Source: Candidatus Diapherotrites archaeon (GTDB lineage Archaea; Iainarchaeota; Iainarchaeia; Iainarchaeales; 1-14-0-10-31-34). From it: a DNA stretch of 64,000 nt. This document shows positions 55,006 to 64,000 of the stretch, piece after piece. The stretch spans positions 448,637 to 512,636 of the forward strand of contig JBFMAK010000001.1 of the NCBI GenBank assembly GCA_040755695.1, in the 5' to 3' direction. How positions within the stretch are numbered: the first letter of the stretch is position 1; each line of letters opens with the position of its first letter. The translations under genes and the position numbers were made by a program. The notes under the pieces were generated by a model that made no database searches, had not been told where the DNA came from, and saw only the letters and a program-made list of their open reading frames with translations.

Positions 55006-55146
55006 GTGCATAAGGTTAAAATAATTCAGGAAGGCTTCAAGTGCGAGAGATGCGGTCATAAGTGGGTTCCAAGAATGGAAAAGGAGCTGCCCAGGGTTTG
55101 CCCTTACTGCAAGAGCCCTTACTGGGACACGCCAAAGAGGGCTTAA
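55006..55146 (+). CDS. Small zinc-ribbon protein
   Basis: 46 aa: KIIQEGFKCERCGHKWVPRMEKELPRVCPYCKSPYWDTPKR is a double CxxC zinc ribbon of a kind common in archaea next to regulators. GTG start with GGTGGG five bases upstream. It ends 13 bp before the membrane-HTH gene, so it is likely its operon partner. Confidence 0.75.
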   Translation: MHKVKIIQEGFKCERCGHKWVPRMEKELPRVCPYCKSPYWDTPKRA

Positions 55147-55159
55147 AGGAGATAATTTT

Positions 55160-55672
55160 ATGAGGAACAGGGTTGTGGGAATTATAATAATTGGGATTGC
55201 ATTGCTTATAGGATTCATTGTTTTTTCCTTTAATCAGGCTATGACCACCATAGTAAATTCTACCTGCGTTCACGGCCCAACATGCCCTATGTGGGGCACA
55301 ATAGAATTCCAGACCAATGTTGGGATAGGGGTAATGGCTTTCATAATAATAATCGGCTTATACCTGATTTTCTTCGGGCAAGAAGAAAAAATAATCACGA
55401 GAACCAAGATCAAGACAATAAAGCAGCAGCTTGAAATGAATAACATAACCAAAGAAAATTACGAGAAGATTTTGAACGGAATGAATGCTGACGAAAAAGG
55501 CATACTTGAAAAAATAATTGAAGCCAAAGGTACAATATTCCAGTCAGACCTAGTAGAAAAAACAGGGCTCAATAAAGTAAAGGTCACAAGAGTCCTTGAC
55601 AAGCTTGAAGGCCAGGGTTTAGTGGAAAGAAAAAGAAGGGGCATGACCAATGTGGTTATACTAAAACACTAA
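55160..55672 (+). CDS. Membrane-bound HTH regulator
   Basis: 170 aa: two TM helices (VVGIIIIGIALLIGFIVFSF and GIGVMAFIIIIGLYLIFFG), with an external Cys-containing loop (NSTCVHGPTCPMWG), then a cytoplasmic winged helix (LEKIIEAKGTIFQSDLVEKTGLNKVKVTRVLDKLEGQGLVERKRRGMTNVV). It could sense extracytoplasmic metal or redox through the Cys pair and regulate the cluster downstream. COG2512-like. Sensing is inferred. Confidence 0.85.
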   Translation: MRNRVVGIIIIGIALLIGFIVFSFNQAMTTIVNSTCVHGPTCPMWGTIEFQTNVGIGVMAFIIIIGLYLIFFGQEEKIITRTKIKTIKQQLEMNNITKENYEKILNGMNADEKGILEKIIEAKGTIFQSDLVEKTGLNKVKVTRVLDKLEGQGLVERKRRGMTNVVILKH

Positions 55673-55683
55673 AAGTGAAAAAA

Positions 55684-56037
55684 ATGAAAAAAATAATTTT
55701 TATAATTTCACTGCTTTTAATTGCAATTCTTACGATTGGCTGCATTCAACAGCAGGACAACCAGAATCCCCCTCCAACTCCAGCACCAGGAAACCAGGGA
55801 AGCAGTGTTTCAATCAAAGACTTTGCTTTTAATCCTTCAACCCTTACTGTTAAGGCAGGAACAACTGTTTCATGGGTTAATGAAGATTCTGTTATACACA
55901 CAATTAAGTCACATAATTTTAATTCCGGAAATTTGAGTAAGGGGGATAAATTTGAATTTAAATTTAATGACAAAGGAACTTTTGATTACGTCTGTGGGCC
56001 CCATCCTTTCATGAAGGGCACAATAATTGTGGGGTAA
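55684..56037 (+). CDS. Blue-copper (plastocyanin-like) lipoprotein
   Basis: About 117 aa: signal with lipobox ILTIGC, Pro/Asn/Gln linker, then a cupredoxin domain SIKDFAFNPSTLTVKAGTTVSWVNEDSVIHTI...FDYVCGPHPFMKGTIIVG. Copper ligands are His (VIHTI) and Cys-His-Met (CGPHPFM). An electron carrier on the outer face of the membrane. A GTG at 55,675 is an alternative start. Next gene begins 7 bp later. Confidence 0.9.
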   Translation: MKKIIFIISLLLIAILTIGCIQQQDNQNPPPTPAPGNQGSSVSIKDFAFNPSTLTVKAGTTVSWVNEDSVIHTIKSHNFNSGNLSKGDKFEFKFNDKGTFDYVCGPHPFMKGTIIVG

Positions 56038-56044
56038 TAAAAAA

Positions 56045-56263
56045 ATGCTTGAAAATATAACCTATTTCCCAATTTTTGGCAAGCCTTTAATAATGTACTC
56101 GGGCATTCTCACTTTGCTTTCTTTCTTGTTTACGGCATCAATAGCAATTCTAAACAAAAAAGGCATTAGAAAAATTCCTTTTAACTGGCACCCGAGAATG
56201 GCAGTAATTTCAATAATTTTGGTGGTAATCCACGGCACATTAGGAATACTGGCCTATTTTTAA
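56045..56263 (+). CDS. Small membrane protein with conserved His (b-type cytochrome-like)
   Basis: 72 aa, two TM helices (LIMYSGILTLLSFLFTASIAIL and MAVISIILVVIHGTLGILAYF) with histidines in FNWHPRM and VIHGTLG that could ligate haem, resembling small cytochrome b561/ferric-reductase-type fragments. It follows the cupredoxin gene by 7 bp and could exchange electrons with it. Function inferred. Confidence 0.6.
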   Translation: MLENITYFPIFGKPLIMYSGILTLLSFLFTASIAILNKKGIRKIPFNWHPRMAVISIILVVIHGTLGILAYF

Positions 56264-56288
56264 TTAGAATAATATAATAAAAAAAGTT

Positions 56289-56392
56289 TGGTTTGAAACA
56301 AACCACTGAAACTATTTCAAAGCAAAGGCTTTGAAAAATTTTAAGCAGGGCTTGAAACTAGTTTCATACCTTCTTATATAAGCTGTTTCAGC
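56289..56392 (+). promoter_or_regulatory. Promoter/leader with four inverted repeats
   Basis: In order: TGGTTTG/CAAACCA, TTTCAAAGC/GCTTTGAAA, the palindrome TGAAACTAGTTTCA (56,353-56,366) with a near copy TGAAACTATTTCA at 56,307, and GCTG/CAGC after a TATA box TTATATAA. The GAAAC/GTTTC half-site recurs, suggesting an operator array for the downstream metal genes, possibly read by the membrane HTH protein. Confidence 0.55.
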
Positions 56393-56466
56393 AGCATTAT
56401 GTCTGTCAATTGATTAAGAATAATCAATTTAATCAATTGAAAAAAAAGAGCAGAGAGGTAAAAAAA

Positions 56467-57234
56467 ATGACAGGAGAAAAAACCCGAGAAAAAACAGAAA
56501 ATAAATCGCAATTTTCTATTTTGCTGGCGGGAATAATTGCAGTAATGCTTGTGGTAATAGTGTTCCAGGCGTTCCAGATCAATTCAATGACCTCAGCAAT
56601 AACAGGCCTTAAAACCACTCAAGCAACAACAGGCCTTGTGACAGCTGCTTCTTCAACCAGTAATGCGGCAAATAGTACAGCAAACACTACATCAAACAGC
56701 ACGGCCTTATTGAGCGACGTAATACCAAAAGGGGTTCCGGCAATATACGGAAAAGAATTAGGGGTTTCATTTGATGATGTAAGCGCAAGCAATGCAGCAA
56801 AAGCAGATGAAACAATAGGAAAATTAGGCGCCCTTGACAATCAAATACAGCTTTCAGGAGACCTATTGCAAAGATACATTAAAATTACAGGGCAGATATC
56901 ATGCGAATACTGCTGCGGTGCACAGTCAATTATTTTCACTACAGATTCAGGCAAATACAAGGCAGGGGATGCAGCTTGCGGTTGCGCTCACAGCTTTGCA
57001 ATGAGAGGCGTAGCAAAATACCTGCTCAAGAACCACGCAAGCCAGTATACTGACGACCAAATACTTGAAGAACTGGGAAAATGGAAGACTTTATTCTTCC
57101 CAGGTCAGATAACACAAAAAGCAAAGATATTGCAGGAGAAAGGAATTCAGTTGAATTACATCAATCTGGCTTCAAACAAGTACAGGGGCATTGAAAAAGG
57201 GTCTTCAGGCAGCTCAATGGTAGGAGGTTGTTAA
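56467..57234 (+). CDS. Membrane-anchored Cys-rich metal-site protein ending in MVGGC
   Basis: 255 aa: cytoplasmic tail, one TM (FSILLAGIIAVMLVVIVFQAF), a Ser/Thr/Asn linker, then a helical domain with CEYCCGAQSIIFTTDSGKYKAGDAACGCAHSFAMRGVAKYLL. CxxCC and CGCAH could form a soft-metal site. The protein ends SSMVGGC. GAGAGG precedes ATG 56,467. Function unrecognised; context argues metal binding outside the membrane. Confidence 0.72.
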   Translation: MTGEKTREKTENKSQFSILLAGIIAVMLVVIVFQAFQINSMTSAITGLKTTQATTGLVTAASSTSNAANSTANTTSNSTALLSDVIPKGVPAIYGKELGVSFDDVSASNAAKADETIGKLGALDNQIQLSGDLLQRYIKITGQISCEYCCGAQSIIFTTDSGKYKAGDAACGCAHSFAMRGVAKYLLKNHASQYTDDQILEELGKWKTLFFPGQITQKAKILQEKGIQLNYINLASNKYRGIEKGSSGSSMVGGC

Positions 57235-57235
57235 A

Positions 57236-57484
57236 ATGGAGAATCTGCAGATAATTCTGGTTGTAGTGCTTGTTGCAACGGCTTTTGTAATAATACTCAA
57301 TGCGTTTCAAATCAGTGAATTAAACAGCAAAGTATCTTCAGGAGGCCTTGCAACAGCCCAAACATCATTGGCTTCAGCTCCAAGAACGGATAGTACAGCG
57401 CAAACCTCAAGCAGCACTTCAAGCACAGGCTCGAATAATTCACAATCTAGTACGCCAGTGCCGACAATGGTTGGAGGCTGCTGA
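57236..57484 (+). CDS. Single-TM Ser/Thr-rich protein ending in MVGGC
   Basis: 82 aa: N-terminal TM (IILVVVLVATAFVIILNAFQ), then an almost pure Ser/Thr/Asn/Gln linker, and the C-terminus PTMVGGC. The terminal pentapeptide is identical to that of the previous gene, although the bodies differ. Starts 2 bp after its neighbour's stop. The linker would display a Cys tail at a distance from the membrane. Confidence 0.72.
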   Translation: MENLQIILVVVLVATAFVIILNAFQISELNSKVSSGGLATAQTSLASAPRTDSTAQTSSSTSSTGSNNSQSSTPVPTMVGGC

Positions 57485-57512
57485 AATTATGCTTTAAAGG
57501 AGGTGATTTCTT

Positions 57513-57839
57513 TTGGCAGAAAAAGAATTTTATTTTGCGGTCCTTGCATTAGGGCTTACATTCTTGCTTGCTTTAGGCATAAGTTCTGCTGCAGCAGCAT
57601 TAAACAACAGCAGTACACCAAACAATTCCAGTGAAGGCAACAATAAAAATTCAGCGATGATGAATTCAAATAGCATGCCTAAAGCGTGCGGGCAGGCAAT
57701 GCAGCAGGAGGGCTTAAGTGAAATGCATGAAGAGTGCGAGGAAATGATGGATTCAGGTGAATGCCCAATGCACAACAGCATGATGAATGGAACAATGAAT
57801 TCAATGATGAACGGGCACATGAAAGGAATGATGGGATGA
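57513..57839 (+). CDS. Met/His/Cys-rich metal-binding membrane protein
   Basis: 108 aa: TM/signal (YFAVLALGLTFLLALGISSAAAA), Ser/Asn linker, then a segment rich in Met, Cys, His (MPKACGQAMQQEGLSEMHEECEEMMDSGECPMHNSMMNGTMNSMMNGHMKGMMG). Such Met-rich tails bind Cu(I)/Ag(I). TTG start with AAAGGAGG ten bases upstream. Confidence 0.75.
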   Translation: MAEKEFYFAVLALGLTFLLALGISSAAAALNNSSTPNNSSEGNNKNSAMMNSNSMPKACGQAMQQEGLSEMHEECEEMMDSGECPMHNSMMNGTMNSMMNGHMKGMMG

Positions 57840-57857
57840 ATGCTTAACCGGCAGAAA

Positions 57858-57920
57858 GCTGCAGGCCCAATTGTAGTACCCCTACCCTTTAGTCTGCAGC
57901 ACTGCCTGTTAATTCAGGCA
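57858..57920 (+). promoter_or_regulatory. Structured intercistronic element
   Basis: Outer stem GCTGCAG/CTGCAGC encloses GTAG/CTAC, followed by a separate hairpin TGCCTG/CAGGCA and an A-run. The 110-bp gap between the Met-rich and PCYCGC-type genes holds nothing coding. May be a processing site, a terminator/attenuator or a metal-responsive RNA. Confidence 0.45.
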
Positions 57921-57954
57921 AAAAAATAAAATGAAAAAAATTGGAGTGAAAAAA

Positions 57955-58356
57955 ATGAAAATAAGTAAAATTGTATTGATGGGAATTATTTTATTTTTTG
58001 CTTTTCTAATGTTAATGATTTTTTCCTCAAAAAATACTTCAGTTTCAGGTTATCTTCCTGCTTTTGCCGCAAAGAACCAAAAAATACAGGAAGCATACAC
58101 CTTTGCAAAGAATTCAGGAGAAAAACTTGATGGAGTGCCATGCTTCTGCGGCTGCATGCAGCACATGCACAACGGAAGGATTCACAGCAGAGGCCTCCTG
58201 GACTGTTTTATGGAGGAAGACAATAAAACCTTTGAAGACCATGCTTCAAACTGCGATATGTGCATTAATGATGCGCTTGAAGTGAAAACCCTTTCAGCCC
58301 AAGGCTTAAGCAAGGATGCCATAAAACAGAAGATTTCTTCAAAATATATAAATTAG
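57955..58356 (+). CDS. PCYCGC-motif membrane-anchored protein
   Basis: 133 aa: N-terminal TM (ISKIVLMGIILFFAFLMLMIF), then YTFAKNSGEKLDGVPCFCGCMQHMHNGRIHSRGLLDCFME...HASNCDMCINDALEVKTLSAQGLSKDAIKQKISSKY. PCFCGC, the HxxxxxH, and the terminal CDMC with ALE helix match the PCYCGC family (PF13798-like) which I expect to bind copper or haem-like soft metal. GGAGTGA supports ATG 57,955. Confidence 0.82.
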   Translation: MKISKIVLMGIILFFAFLMLMIFSSKNTSVSGYLPAFAAKNQKIQEAYTFAKNSGEKLDGVPCFCGCMQHMHNGRIHSRGLLDCFMEEDNKTFEDHASNCDMCINDALEVKTLSAQGLSKDAIKQKISSKYIN

Positions 58357-58368
58357 GAAGTGAAAAAA

Positions 58369-58530
58369 ATGTTTGGCTTTTCAAAAAAGAAGGACCCGGT
58401 ATGCGGGATGACACAAGAAAAAGGCAAAGGCATTGAAAAGCAGGGGAAATGGTTTTGCTCTCAGGCCTGCTTGGAAAAATATGGGGCAGGAACAAAAGAA
58501 TCAGGCCAGAGTGGAAGTTGCTGCGGTTAA
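58369..58530 (+). CDS. YHS/TRASH-domain metal-binding protein
   Basis: 53 aa: KKKDPVCGMTQEKGKGIEKQGKWFCSQACLEKYG...SGSCCG. DPVCGM and FCSQACLEKY are the YHS-domain signature; a CCG tail adds thiols. Likely cytosolic, feeding metal to CopA. 12 bp after the PCYCGC gene. Not long enough for typical ORF callers. Confidence 0.8.
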   Translation: MFGFSKKKDPVCGMTQEKGKGIEKQGKWFCSQACLEKYGAGTKESGQSGSCCG

Positions 58531-58545
58531 TTTTAAGGTGGCAAA

Positions 58546-59043
58546 ATGAATAAAGCTTTAATTGCGTTTGCCTCTCTTGTGCTTCTGCTTTCAATTGCGT
58601 CCTTTGCTTCTGCTCACTGCCCTTTATGCACTGGGGCAGCAGCTGGTGCAGTAGCAGCCGCAAGATTTTATGGCGTTGATGACGCAATCGTTGGAGTCTG
58701 GCTTGGGGCATTCATTATTTCCACAGCCTTGTGGTTTGACAGGATTCTTAAAAAGAGATATATTCCAATGCAGACTTTCTCAATAATAATCTTGGCTTTA
58801 GTAATGACTCTTGTCCCATTCTATTTTGCAGGATTGTTTGGTGGAATGCACAAAACATTGTTTGGAATTGACAGGCTCTTTGTAGGAATTGTTTCAGGAA
58901 GCATTCTCACTTACCTTGGATTCATTTTAAGCAATGAAATCAAAAAAGAAAACAAGAAGGTTTTGTTTCCATTCCAAAGCATAATCCTGACTTTTGCAAT
59001 CCTATTGATTGCTTCGCTCATGTTCTGGCTTGTTGCAGTGTGA
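58546..59043 (+). CDS. Multi-TM protein with HCPLC motif
   Basis: 165 aa: signal/TM, then AHCPLCTGAAAGAVAAARFYGVDDAIVGVWLGAFIISTALWFD. HCPLC just outside the membrane followed by four or five TM helices. The motif is thioredoxin- or metal-like. No family named. Its stop is 7 bp before the CCAHH protein. Confidence 0.68.
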   Translation: MNKALIAFASLVLLLSIASFASAHCPLCTGAAAGAVAAARFYGVDDAIVGVWLGAFIISTALWFDRILKKRYIPMQTFSIIILALVMTLVPFYFAGLFGGMHKTLFGIDRLFVGIVSGSILTYLGFILSNEIKKENKKVLFPFQSIILTFAILLIASLMFWLVAV

Positions 59044-59050
59044 ATTTAAA

Positions 59051-59995
59051 ATGCAAGAAGAAACTTCAAAATCAATAATAATCGGGCTTTCCGCCTCAGT
59101 GCTCATGCTTCTGGCTTACATACTCATACTTACAGTTGCAAATTCATTCAGCCATGCAATCGAAGAATTCCTGCTGTTATGGCCTTGGATTATTCCTTTA
59201 GTAATAGGATTCGGAATTCAGATAGGATTGTATTCTTTTATTAGAAGTTCATTGCGCGAGAGAAGGCTTACTGCTGCAACAACTGAAGTTGCGGCAACGG
59301 GAGGCATTTCTACAGCCTCAATGGTTGCCTGCTGCGCCCACCACCTTACAGAAGTGCTTGTATTGTTCGGGCTTTCTGCTGCTGCATTGTTTTTGTTGAA
59401 GTACCAGATTACCTTTATAATTCTCGGAATTTTTTCTAATATTGTGGGCATTACAATAATGCTTGGCATAATCCAGAAAAACAATCTTTTCAGTAAAGAG
59501 TTATCAGGAATGCTTTTCAAATTTGACATGAAGACGGCAAGGAATGCCGCTATAGTTCTTTCTGCAATAATTGTTTCTGTGGCATTTCTTGCACCTCCCC
59601 CCACGTCAATTCCTCAAAATTTTCCAGTAAATTCAAACAACCAGAATGCATCAGCATCACAATTCAATCTTGGCACAAAAACAAACAATGAGAATGAAGT
59701 TTCAGTTGATGTAACCCCAATAGATTTCTCTTTTGGCAGTGAAGTTAGATTCAATATAGGTTTGAACACGCACACGGGCTCTCTTGATTACGACCTAACA
59801 AAAATTTCAGTTCTTCAGGACGATAAAGGAAATTCTTTCAATCCGATTAAATGGGAAGGCCCTCCTCCAGGAGGCCACCATAGGACAGGAATACTGACCT
59901 TCCCAAAGCTTGGAGAAAAAACTTCTTCCATCAAACTCGTAATAAAAGGGATTTATGATGTGCCTGAAAGGGTTTTTGTCTGGCAATTAATGTGA
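59051..59995 (+). CDS. Multi-TM protein with CCAHH motif and external beta domain
   Basis: 314 aa: six or so TM helices; VAATGGISTASMVACCAHHLTEVLVLFGLSAAALFL puts CCAHH in or near the membrane, a likely soft-metal site. After residue about 180 an external beta domain (VDVTPIDFSFGSEVRFNIGLNTHTGSLDYDLTKISVLQDDKGN...GGHHRTGILTFP). A transporter or relay is plausible; unproven. Confidence 0.7.
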   Translation: MQEETSKSIIIGLSASVLMLLAYILILTVANSFSHAIEEFLLLWPWIIPLVIGFGIQIGLYSFIRSSLRERRLTAATTEVAATGGISTASMVACCAHHLTEVLVLFGLSAAALFLLKYQITFIILGIFSNIVGITIMLGIIQKNNLFSKELSGMLFKFDMKTARNAAIVLSAIIVSVAFLAPPPTSIPQNFPVNSNNQNASASQFNLGTKTNNENEVSVDVTPIDFSFGSEVRFNIGLNTHTGSLDYDLTKISVLQDDKGNSFNPIKWEGPPPGGHHRTGILTFPKLGEKTSSIKLVIKGIYDVPERVFVWQLM

Positions 59996-60005
59996 GGAAT
60001 AAAGA

Positions 60006-60506
60006 ATGGGAATAGAAAGCGCCGAAGAATTAGTGAGCAAAATCAATGAACTGAAAGAAAAGGAAAAGATAGACCTTTCCTCTGATGAAGACCTAAGCCT
60101 TGCGTTGATGAATTTGATTTCAATTGAAGAGCACCTGTATTTTTCCGGGATGAAGACAGAAAAAAAGAAGTATTTTGAGCTCCTGAATTCTGTCCGGGAG
60201 TTAAGGAAAAAGCTTTTGAAGGAAATTGTAAGGGAGCCTGAAGGTGAAACATGGTGCATTTCAAAGCATTTGCTTGCATCTTCCATGAGGCTTATAGAGG
60301 TAGGCAACAAGCACCTCACAAAAAAAGAGGGGGAGAAAGCGCACCAAAAATTCCAGGACGCGTTTGAGTTGTACACAATGTTCTGGAGCCTTAACTTAAA
60401 ATTAATAAAAAACGAGGAATTGATTGAAGGGCCAAAAGACGCAAAAAGCTGGAGGGACAAATTCGGTTCAGTAATAAAAAAACTGATTGACTGCTGCAAG
60501 GAATAA
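60006..60506 (+). CDS. Helical protein of unknown function with WCISKH motif
   Basis: 166 aa, all-helical: SLALMNLISIEEHLYFSGMKTEKKKYFELLNSVRELRKKLLKEIVREPEGETWCISKHLLASSMRLIEVGNKHL. ETWCISKH and a terminal DCCKE supply thiols and His. I recall similar proteins in metal loci but name none. Probably soluble, 10 bp after the CCAHH gene. Confidence 0.65.
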   Translation: MGIESAEELVSKINELKEKEKIDLSSDEDLSLALMNLISIEEHLYFSGMKTEKKKYFELLNSVRELRKKLLKEIVREPEGETWCISKHLLASSMRLIEVGNKHLTKKEGEKAHQKFQDAFELYTMFWSLNLKLIKNEELIEGPKDAKSWRDKFGSVIKKLIDCCKE

Positions 60507-60536
60507 ATTATAAAATGTTTTAGGATTGAAGTTTAT

Positions 60537-61157
60537 ATGGACAAAAAAAATAAGACCTTTCTTGAAGGAATAATTTACGGATTGATTCCACACATTGGCT
60601 GCATTGCATTCATCATAGGCTCAATTCTTGGAGTGACAGTGCTCATAAATTTATTCAGGCCCCTGCTCTTGAATAAATACTTTTTTTACATTCTTTTCCT
60701 TGTTTCCATTTCTTTTGCCACAATCTCTGCATTATTGTATCTCAGAAAAAACGGCATTCTCTCCATGGCAGGAGTGAAAAGGAAATGGAAATATCTTTCA
60801 ACAATGTATGGCTCAACTATTGGAGTCAACCTACTGCTATTCTTTGTGCTGTTCCCAATGCTTGCAAATGTTTCTGTGGATTCTTCGCCCAACCTTTCCT
60901 CAACAGGTGCAATTGCTTTTGCAGAGAACAAAAGCCTTGAGGCTTCACTGATAAAATTGAAGGTGGACATCCCCTGCTCAGGCCATGCAGCATTAATTTC
61001 AAGTGAATTAAAGACTTTGGATGGGGTATCAGAAGTAAAATTCTCTTCCCCCAATAACTTCGATGTGAAATGCGATCTTTCAAAGACTTCAAAGGAACAG
61101 ATTTTGTCCCTTGACGTATTCAAGACTTATCCTGCCACCATTATTGAAGAAAAATAA
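60537..61157 (+). CDS. MerT-like membrane protein with C-terminal HMA-like domain (CxxH)
   Basis: 206 aa: TMs from GIIYGLIPHIGCIAFIIGSILGVT onwards (four), a linker, then an HMA-like fold SLIKLKVDIPCSGHAALISSELKTLDGVSEVKFSSPNNFDVKCDLS. The metal loop is CSGH rather than CxxC. A MerT-type importer or copper handling protein. GIPHIGC could be a transit metal site. Confidence 0.75.
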   Translation: MDKKNKTFLEGIIYGLIPHIGCIAFIIGSILGVTVLINLFRPLLLNKYFFYILFLVSISFATISALLYLRKNGILSMAGVKRKWKYLSTMYGSTIGVNLLLFFVLFPMLANVSVDSSPNLSSTGAIAFAENKSLEASLIKLKVDIPCSGHAALISSELKTLDGVSEVKFSSPNNFDVKCDLSKTSKEQILSLDVFKTYPATIIEEK

Positions 61158-61190
61158 TAAGCTATAAATAATAAAACAGCAGCTAATGAT

Positions 61191-63635
61191 ATGATGAAGA
61201 AAGTAATTCCTATTTCAGGCATGCACTGCGCTTCCTGCGCTCAAAACATAGAGTCAAGGCTCAAGAAATTAAAGGGGGTGAATTCTGCCAGCGTGAATTT
61301 CGCCACAGAGAAAGCAACAGTAGAATTCAATGAAGGCATTACAAGCCAAGAAGAAATAAACAAGGTGATTGAAGAATTGGGCTACAAGCCCATAAGGCAG
61401 GAGCCACAGCCTGTTGCAGTGCAGGGAGCCAGCAAGTTAAGGCTCAAAGTAATTGGAATGGACAACCAGCACTGCATTGGCACAGTAAGCAATTCCCTAA
61501 AGATTAGGGGCGTTCTGTCCAAAGAACTCTCACAGAACGAGAGGGCAGTAATAAGATATGACCCTAAAATAATCAGCCCTGAAAAAATAAAGAAGGCAAT
61601 AAAGGACGCAGGCTATGAGCCAATACAAGAAAAAGAAACAGAAGCAGAAGAAGAACTTTTTGACAGGGAGAAAGAGGCAAGAAAAAAAGAAATCAATTTA
61701 CTGAAGAACTTGTTCCTGCTTTCCTTAATTCTTTCAATTCCAATATTCATCCTCTCCTTTCCTGAATGGTTTAATGTAATTATTCCATACCAGAATATTG
61801 TTCTGTTGATTCTTGCAACCCCAGTGCAATTCATTGTTGGCTGGAGATTCTACAAAGGCGCTTTCTCTGCATTAAAGGCAAGGACTGCAAGCATGGACAC
61901 ATTAATAGCAGTAGGAACTTCAGCAGCATACATTTACAGCGCACTCGCAATTCTTCTCCCTTACTTTGGAGATTATATTTACTTTGACACCTCTTCAGTA
62001 ATAATCACTTTTATTATTTTAGGGAAATGGTTTGAGGCAATAACAAAAGGCCGAGCTTCAGAGGCAATAAAAAAATTGGTTGGCCTTCAACCAAAAATTG
62101 CGACAGTAATCAGGAACGGCAAGGAGTTGCAGATTGCAATCAGGGAGGTTGAAGTAGGAGACATTGTGTTAGTTAAGCCTGGCCAGAAAATTCCAGTGGA
62201 CGGAATTGTAATTGAAGGATTTTCTTCAGTGGACGAATCAATGGTCACAGGGGAAAGCATTCCAGTAGAAAAAAATAAGGGAGACACAGTAATAGGGGCA
62301 ACAATAAACAAGCATGGAAGCTTCAAGTTCAAGGCAACAAAAGTCGGCAAGGACACAGTTCTGAGCCAGATAATTAAATTAGTGGAAGAAGCCCAAGGAA
62401 GCAAGGCTCCAATCCAAAGGCTTGCAGACAAGGTCTCCTCAATCTTTGTTCCAGCAGTAATAATAATTGCAATAATTTCCTTTCTCTTATGGTTTCTTGT
62501 TTTCTCCCAGACATTTGTTTTCTCTTTAAGCATCTTTATTGCAGTCCTCATAATCGCCTGCCCGTGCGCCTTAGGCCTTGCGACTCCAACAGCAATAATG
62601 GTAGGAACAGGAAAGGCAGCAGAGAATGGAATCCTGATCAAGACTGCTGAGGCATTAGAGAACGCAAAAAGGATTACAACAATTGTATTCGACAAGACAG
62701 GCACTCTCACAAAAGGAAGCCCAAGCGTCACAGACATTATCCCAACAGGAAAAATTGAAAGGAAAGAGCTCTTAAGTTATGCTGCAATTGCAGAGAAGAA
62801 TTCAGAACATCCACTCGCAGAAGCAATTATCTCAAAGGCAAAAGAAGAAAAAATAAAAGTTCCTGAAGCGCAATCATTCCAAGCAATCCCAGGCCACGGA
62901 ATAATTGCAAAATACAGCAAGAAAGAAATTTTGTTTGGAAACAGGAACTTAATGAAAAAATACAGGATTAATTTCTCGGGCTCAGAAGAAAAAATAATAG
63001 CATTAGAGAACGAAGGAAAGACTGTAATGTTTCTTGCATTAAACAAAAAAATTATCGGGCTCATAGCTGTAGCTGACACCCTGAAAGAATTCTCAAAAGA
63101 AACTGTCCGGAAACTGCATGAAATGGGAAAAGAGGTAATAATGATTACAGGAGACAATAAAAGGACAGCAAACGCAATAGCAAAGCAATTAGGGCTTAAT
63201 GATGTCCTTGCTGAAGTCCTGCCTCAGGAGAAAGAGAAAGAGATAGCAAAACTGCAGAAGAAAGGAAGGATTGTTGCAATGATAGGAGACGGAATAAATG
63301 ATGCTCCTGCCCTCGCAAAGGCAGACATTGGAATTGCAATAGGCGCAGGAACAGATGTTGCACTAGAAACAGGCCAGATTGTCCTGATAAAAAATGATTT
63401 AAGGGATGTCATTACAGCAATAGACTTAAGCAATTACACACTCAAGAAAATAAAACAGAACCTCTTCTGGGCTTTCTTCTATAATTCAATTGGCATTCCA
63501 GTTGCTGCAGGCGCATTGTATGCTTTTGGCATTCTTCTTAATCCAATGATTGCCGGGGCTGCAATGGCTTTTTCTTCTGTTTCAGTTGTCTCAAACTCTC
63601 TTCTAATGAAAAGATATAAAAAAATTAAAATATAA
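61191..63635 (+). CDS. copA: Copper-translocating P-type ATPase (P1B-1)
   Basis: 814 aa: HMA1 with GMHCASC (residues 10-16), HMA2 with a GMDNQHC loop that has lost its first Cys, eight TMs, TGES, CPC (residues 457-459) as the transmembrane Cu(I) site, phosphorylated Asp about 501 in [15 protein letters not shown] and [11 protein letters not shown]. The C-terminal helices [11 protein letters not shown] and [13 protein letters not shown] complete the Cu+ export ATPase signature. Confidence 0.96.
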
Positions 63636-63660: not shown

Positions 63661-64000
63661 ATGGAGCAAAATAAATTATTAGTTCTGCCGAAATTGAATT
63701 ACGGCTTCAAGGACTTGGAGCCTTACATTTCAGAACAGCAATTGAAAATTCATTACGAGAAACACCACCAAGCTTATGTCAATGCAGCAAACGCAGTATT
63801 CGAGAAACTAGATAAAGCAAGAAAGGAAGGCACAGACCTGGACATGAAGGCCACACTCAAAGAGCTTTCATTCAACATTGGAGGGCACTTGCTGCACTCA
63901 TTATTCTGGGGGAATCTTACACCAGTGGGAAAAGGAGGAGAAAAACCAACAGGCACATTGGCTGAAGCAATAGAGAAGGAATTCGGAAGCTTTGAGAGAT
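63661..64000 (+). CDS. Superoxide dismutase (Fe/Mn), partial at window edge
   Basis: N-terminal 113 aa of a Fe/Mn [37 protein letters not shown] gives metal ligand His31, and [10 protein letters not shown] gives His79. C-terminal ligands (DxW, H) are beyond the window. AGGAGGCG seven bases upstream fixes the start. The gene joins rubrerythrin as oxidative-stress defence beside copper genes. Confidence 0.95.

Follow-up and report, generated by a model that had tools for sequence, protein, structure and literature searches.

The analysed window is a stretch of 64,000 nucleotides from Candidatus Diapherotrites archaeon (assembly GCA_040755695.1, contig JBFMAK010000001.1, positions 448,637 to 512,636), and coordinates are given below from its first letter. 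At 55006-63635 its plus strand carries a cluster of fourteen colinear genes with metal-type motifs, preceded by a rubrerythrin gene and followed by an Fe/Mn superoxide dismutase gene (Pfam Sod_Fe_N), which starts at 63661 on the same strand and is cut by the window end. In order, the products are a zinc ribbon, a membrane protein with a helix-turn-helix domain (memHTH), a cupredoxin lipoprotein, a small His-containing membrane protein, two proteins here called A and B, a Met-rich protein, a PCFCGC protein, a small YHS/TRASH-like protein, three proteins referred to by their motifs as HCPLC, CCAHH and WCISKH, a MerT-like protein and the ATPase CopA. A preliminary description of the locus had proposed that these genes form an undescribed extracytoplasmic system for the capture, relay and export of Cu(I) or another soft metal, and every gene and motif that it named is present, in the order given. 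It did not mention protein B, the C-terminal motif that A and B share, or an operator-like palindrome upstream of A. When Pfam and NCBIfam scores were read against the cut-off of each model, about half of the cluster genes could be assigned to no family; A, B, HCPLC, CCAHH and WCISKH all lack a model above cut-off.

Protein A (56467-57234, plus strand as are all genes of the cluster) comprises a single N-in transmembrane (TM) segment, a linker, a helical domain and a tail with MVGGC at its C-terminus. Alignment of its relatives shows Cys146, Cys149, Cys150, Cys171, Cys173 and His175 to be invariant together with the VGGC of the tail, and the former define the site pattern C146-x2-C149-C150 and C171-x-C173-x-H175 (CxxCC/CGCAH). 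The AlphaFold2 model of A is confident (mean pLDDT 84) and helical, and no match was found in the PDB, either by model fold or by sequence. In profile comparisons, the A domain is related to a cluster family with the pattern CC...DCNHG (92.8%) and not to the PCYCGC domain (2.3% probability); kinship with CcmH-like domains was considered as an idea only and no PDB fold match supports it. At another locus (L055:8154-9554), a single gene joins the A domain to a multi-TM protein on its N-terminal side, which has a GMGCPSCG motif, and the fusion gene adjoins CopA and a homologue of the MerT-like gene of the window, which links A to a membrane metal protein.

Protein B (57236-57484) has 82 amino acids, with a single TM segment and a low-complexity linker. 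Apart from a similar TM segment, A and B have little in common, and yet both end in MVGGC followed directly by the stop codon. For comparison, relatives of A were collected by a species-genome scan, from which the 80 best-scoring and closest of 252 were kept, and the genes around A were clustered over about 98 loci, with mechanical open reading frames (ORFs) as gene calls; all E-values and p-values are nominal and ignore the shared ancestry of the related loci. Over the 80 loci, MVGGC forms the C-terminus of 68 of 81 A proteins and of 89 of 92 collected B proteins, a set chosen by the tail itself, with three B proteins ending in QVGSC. B-like ORFs were also chosen by TM segment and position, regardless of the tail, and of these 53, 46 have MVGGC and 3 have QVGSC at the C-terminus. 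A search for the tail codons in 113 genomes around the host matched 20 genomes, usually through two hits that belong to the A/B pair. A control with the reversed pattern yielded zero matches, and the lone match in a genome lacking A (G109) is not a protein end. All synonymous codons are used for the Val, Gly and Cys of the tail, and the residues at -6 and further are variable. Because the tail codons vary freely, selection acts on the protein. A DNA-level or widespread motif is ruled out by this variation and by the restriction of the matches to the A/B pair, bar the one non-coding case. The distribution of Lys and Arg predicts that both proteins have their N-terminus inside and their tail outside the cell.

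What the tail does can be read in more than one way. MVGGC might be a signal for recognition or modification, such as lipidation, thioester formation or crosslinking of the terminal Cys, or for docking into a dedicated receptor such as HCPLC or CCAHH; it would then co-localise A and B, and other residues would bind the metal. A linker that is variable and of low complexity but keeps five residues invariant, and the same five in two differing proteins, would suit such a role. The same is true of the inspected loci in which A is tail-less, where an intact downstream B retains its C-terminal Cys (in L154 the B frame is truncated). However, no dedicated processing enzyme was recognised among the 45 largest neighbourhood gene families inspected, and known C-terminal sorting signals end with a TM helix and basic residues, neither of which is present here, so that we regard a signal of this kind as improbable. 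The linkers have features of their own: in many B proteins (for example, L116:4300-4569, L149:9561-9836 and L047:7336-7578) and also in the A proteins of L036 and L037 they contain MSGWTxxEKMxYExHGxxPAR or ETYEQMMARMHPDQ motifs, which resemble the small GYTEEAWREHMGHHP protein and might possibly represent a portable Met/His metal motif.

Upstream of A lies TGAAACTAGTTTCA (56353-56366, strandless), a perfect palindrome 7 bp 5' of a TATA-like box (56374-56381). It is the sole exact copy in the host genome, a nearly complete bin of 1.3 Mb, and looser repeats of its half-site occur at 56290-56319. Across 1.26 Mb of related loci, the exact palindrome turns up 42 times, where about 0.012 occurrences would be expected, and 36 of these stand directly before A. 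Further copies, some of them with a single mismatch, lie ahead of f18/cupredoxin, CopA or PCFCGC genes. A candidate for the cognate regulator is memHTH (55160-55672), which has two TM segments, an external C-x5-CPMW loop and a C-terminal cytosolic winged helix-turn-helix domain of the MarR type with an RKRRGMTN wing. In Pfam, this C-terminal domain scores 32.8 bits with MarR (cut-off 24.6) and 40.7 bits with DUF7343, which identifies memHTH as a MarR-type winged-helix regulator. The palindrome is present in 38 of 42 loci whose memHTH has an RxGMxN wing and in 3 of 25 with other wing types (p ~1e-10), and the other types have recurring sites of their own, TATATGGTTTCA in 6 of 9 and TGAAC[AG]AT in 7 of 13. 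Because the presence of the site follows the type of the wing, we infer that memHTH binds the TGAAACTAGTTTCA operator.

Two genomes without A also carry the palindrome. In G004 (locus L167) it is flanked on one side by a type I memHTH and on the other by a putatively DUF2318-like protein, so labelled by eye, which is followed by HMA and CopA-like genes, an arrangement that may represent a smaller regulon without A and B. In G038 it coincides with the beginning of a memHTH gene, again of type I. Within the window, the presumed 5' leader of A (56406-56440) contains a perfect 12-nt inverted repeat (TCAATTGATTAA/TTAATCAATTGA).

The proposal that these genes belong together was checked against the neighbourhoods of relatives, which proved not to be unconnected: the same order, memHTH – A – B – [CopG/DUF411] – HCPLC – WCISKH – CCAHH, frequently joined by CopA, is repeated across about 98 DPANN loci, a synteny that rules out a chance neighbourhood. 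These loci span Woese-, Pace-, Aenigmat- and Micrarchaeota as well as Diapherotrites. Of them, 79 contain memHTH, about 60 HCPLC, 9 the YHS-like family and 6 the PCYCGC family; further neighbours include CopA, PadR-TRASH, DUF5676, cupredoxin and Met-rich genes. DUF411/CopG genes are found in 32 related loci (about a third), CopG being known as a Cu-cluster oxidoreductase of copper-resistance clusters (PMC8456105). Among the 113 genomes, A is present in 22, including 9 of 9 genomes with CCAHH (Fisher 8e-8) and 5 of 5 with HCPLC; within the phylum of the host the distribution is patchy (19 of 87 genomes). The 80 relatives kept are all from DPANN or unnamed archaea, bar one contig labelled Bacteroidetes (L137), on which a typical A gene ending in MVGGC lies at the contig end and which we suspect to be misbinned archaeal DNA. 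With regard to a mobile-element origin, viral contigs and plasmids were searched for relatives of A and none was found. The fourteen genes do not hold together equally well. The core recurs, but the zinc ribbon (55006-55146), the small His membrane protein (an ORF at 56045-56263, start approximate, with two TM segments, an NWHPRM motif, another His and no family above cut-off, whose position fits the cluster) and the MerT-like gene do not recur in the neighbourhoods, and the YHS and PCFCGC genes do so occasionally. With this qualification, the view of one conserved, co-regulated, metal-type set that has not been described is supported within the literature searched (open-licence PMC papers), which contained nothing on the twin-tail motif, the operator or the cluster as a set.

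Three further members of the core are membrane or helical proteins with Cys motifs of their own. In HCPLC (58546-59043), H24-C25-P-L-C28 is invariant in an alignment of 54 sequences and stands right after a signal-like segment, a predicted signal peptide; if cleavage took place after ASA, the mature protein would begin with His-Cys, a candidate for a histidine brace. CCAHH (59051-59995) is a polytopic membrane protein with an intramembrane CC-x-H motif, and it is joined in one chain to an extracytoplasmic NTH...GHH domain, for which other loci have a separate gene. Neither HCPLC nor CCAHH has a PDB relative by sequence, and profile comparisons were negative both between HCPLC and CCAHH and between CCAHH and its C-terminal domain. 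WCISKH (60006-60506), known from an alignment and an AlphaFold2 model (pLDDT 87.5; no significant PDB match), is predicted to be a soluble helical bundle of the cytosol and ends in DCCKE. In some related loci its slot is taken by a 4-TM protein; the two (44 and 19 loci, respectively) share this one slot and never occur together (p ~2e-6). In each of the two families, [DE]CCK closes most of the sequences (e.g., L160:10865-11299; ECCK in the 4-TM protein), a second shared C-terminal Cys tail, which hints at a cytoplasmic thiol tail. The two are not treated as homologues, since the hhalign match (86% over 39 columns) covers helical segments only and leaves the Cys tail unaligned.

CopA (61191-63635) bears on the identity of the metal. 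By Pfam it has HMA and E1-E2 ATPase domains, and it carries the P-type motifs DKTGT, TGES, HP and GDGIND as well as all P1B-1 signatures (CPC457, N757-FWAFFYN..P and M792AFSS, that is, MxxSS), which make it a Cu(I)/Ag(I)-type P1B-1 ATPase. Of its two HMA domains, the N-terminal one has GMxCxxC and the second is degenerate, with GMDNQHC in the corresponding place. The cupredoxin lipoprotein (55675-56037) scores 52.0 bits with Cupredoxin_1 (cut-off 27), and its sequence contains the type-1 copper ligands (H..C.H..M, in H..CGPHPFM). The PCFCGC protein (57931-58356) passes PF13798 (53.1 bits, cut-off 25) and stays under the cut-off of CYCXC NF041379 (57.7 bits against 90). The Met-rich protein (57513-57839), secreted or anchored, has MMN/HMK repeats and no family above cut-off. 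The small YHS/TRASH-like Cys protein with its C-terminal SCCG (58360-58530) stays below the cut-off of PF04945 (21.0 bits against 30.3) and the MerT-like protein far below that of the MerTP fusion NF033556 (19.6 bits against 180). The P1B-1 signatures of CopA, together with the CopG/DUF411, cupredoxin and TRASH-type genes found in relatives, make Cu(I)/Ag(I) the probable metal, in keeping with the Cu(I) or other soft metal originally proposed.

The MerT-like gene (60537-61157), which encodes a TM protein whose HMA-like domain is degenerate (PCSGH), raises the question of whether the system handles Hg(II) or some other soft metal instead of copper, and CxxCC sites would indeed suit Hg and Ag. 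Yet, besides the weak score and the lack of recurrence of this gene, no other mer gene was recognised in the cluster, and we consider handling of mercury or the like very improbable. A different question is whether copper is acquired and delivered to cuproproteins of the cupredoxin or CuA type, rather than removed. The cupredoxin gene adjoins the operon, and CuA-type cupredoxin genes (family 36; CTVFCGSGHSDM, e.g., L129:2580-2999) lie near A in some related loci, so that some relatives may possess CuA proteins, such as have been reported from DPANN archaea (PMC10936187). Against supply stand the failure to find any COX2-type/CuA oxidase or multicopper oxidase in the host genome, the exporter type of its P1B-1 pump and the patchy distribution, which suits an accessory resistance trait. 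Delivery to cuproproteins therefore appears unlikely as the purpose of the system; as neither kind of oxidase was found, protection from copper is the more probable function.

The many thiols of the cluster also invite a reading in which metal is secondary. A and B could belong to an extracytoplasmic thiol-disulfide relay in which their terminal Cys serves as a mobile redox arm that carries electrons between membrane thiol oxidoreductases and the CxxCC/CxCxH centre of A, copper being merely the stress that makes the relay necessary; some reductases have paired Cys at their C-terminus that act as a model for such an arm. DsbA-like genes (26 loci) and DsbD/CcdA-like genes (families 26 and 31) occur nearby, HCPLC has CxxC-type motifs, and CopG itself has been described as a Cu-thiol oxidoreductase. 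On the other hand, the tail has a single Cys and no resolving Cys, and the Met-Val before GGC is conserved. Moreover, A and B are linked most tightly with metal genes and a Cu(I) ATPase, whereas the DsbA-like genes are scattered, with no fixed position. We consider a redox relay rather unlikely.

Collectively, these observations lead us to lean towards a regulated homeostasis module of DPANN archaea for Cu(I) or a similar soft metal, which would combine extracytoplasmic sensing, buffering and export with tethered Met/Cys tails. As a membrane-spanning one-component regulator, memHTH would detect the metal with the Cys loop that it exposes outside and control transcription from TGAAACTAGTTTCA, just 5' of the A promoter. 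The products would be surface-exposed, membrane-tethered thiol proteins, with a metal or thiol site (CxxCC/CxCxH) in A. The tails of A and B, flexible and extracytoplasmic, could together bind or pass on Cu(I) through Met thioethers and terminal Cys thiolates. The route of Cu(I) would comprise A, HCPLC, CCAHH, acceptors of the cupredoxin, Met-rich, PCYCGC or CopG-like kinds and the site of expulsion by CopA, and the net effect would be extracytoplasmic sequestration and protection from copper. The metal bound by A and B and the direction of its flow are part of what we infer here. More tentatively, A and B may constitute a new device, a tethered pair with identical tails outside the cell that hold a Cu(I)-thiolate site between them or pass the ion from tail to tail, under direct control of the memHTH sensor.

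Several points weigh against the homeostasis module. The strict conservation of Val-Gly-Gly, beyond Met and Cys, suggests that a protein partner recognises the tail; the A domain, as modelled, is without a structural relative; and the DsbA- and CcdA-like genes of several loci allow a purely redox interpretation. The window is also without a nearby CopG: a Pfam scan of its cluster genes found no CopG/DUF411, and DUF411 was not detected in the host genome by a search that had no positive control.

DPANN archaea are mostly uncultured, many are host-attached, and little has been learned of their dealings with toxic metals. The cluster would equip them with a distinct copper-type module under common regulation, the central proteins of which are unmatched in Pfam and NCBIfam, and it represents a candidate novel mechanism for soft metals at the cell surface. 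In its twin MVGGC tails, two neighbouring proteins that otherwise differ have one invariant C-terminal motif in common, which is rare, and the covariation of operator and regulator assigns a DNA site, and with it a putative regulator, to an otherwise unannotated family of membrane winged-helix proteins.

Among known systems, the bacterial CopA-centred copper resistance operons (cue/cop/pco type, with CopG/DUF411) resemble the present cluster. They share with it the P1B-1 ATPase, an extracytoplasmic cupredoxin, Met-rich proteins, a dedicated regulator and, in about a third of the loci, DUF411/CopG. Their multicopper oxidase, CusCBA and CueR/CopRS were not recognised in this cluster, which has instead the A/B twin-tail pair, HCPLC, CCAHH, WCISKH and a membrane-embedded winged-helix regulator. 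The MerT/MerTP mercury transporters show the same succession of a small TM protein and an HMA-like domain, but the protein of the window is below the NCBIfam cut-off and has CSGH in place of the CxxC of the HMA-like part. To the PCYCGC family (PF13798; CYCXC, NF041379), with its extracytoplasmic Cys-cluster proteins, the cluster contributes a Pfam member of its own in the PCFCGC gene, whereas the A domain is unrelated by profile and sides with the CC...DCNHG proteins. GlyGly-CTERM and PGF-CTERM likewise place a short conserved C-terminal motif on otherwise different proteins; A and B do not carry such sorting signals, since MVGGC forms the very C-terminus of both, with no TM helix or basic cluster after it, and usually marks two proteins per genome. 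For CTR1-type copper tails and the C-terminal Cys tails of MerA, a flexible Cys tail has been proposed to hand over a soft metal. The tails of A and B differ in that they are predicted to be extracytoplasmic, read exactly MVGGC and occur on two different, adjacent single-TM proteins.

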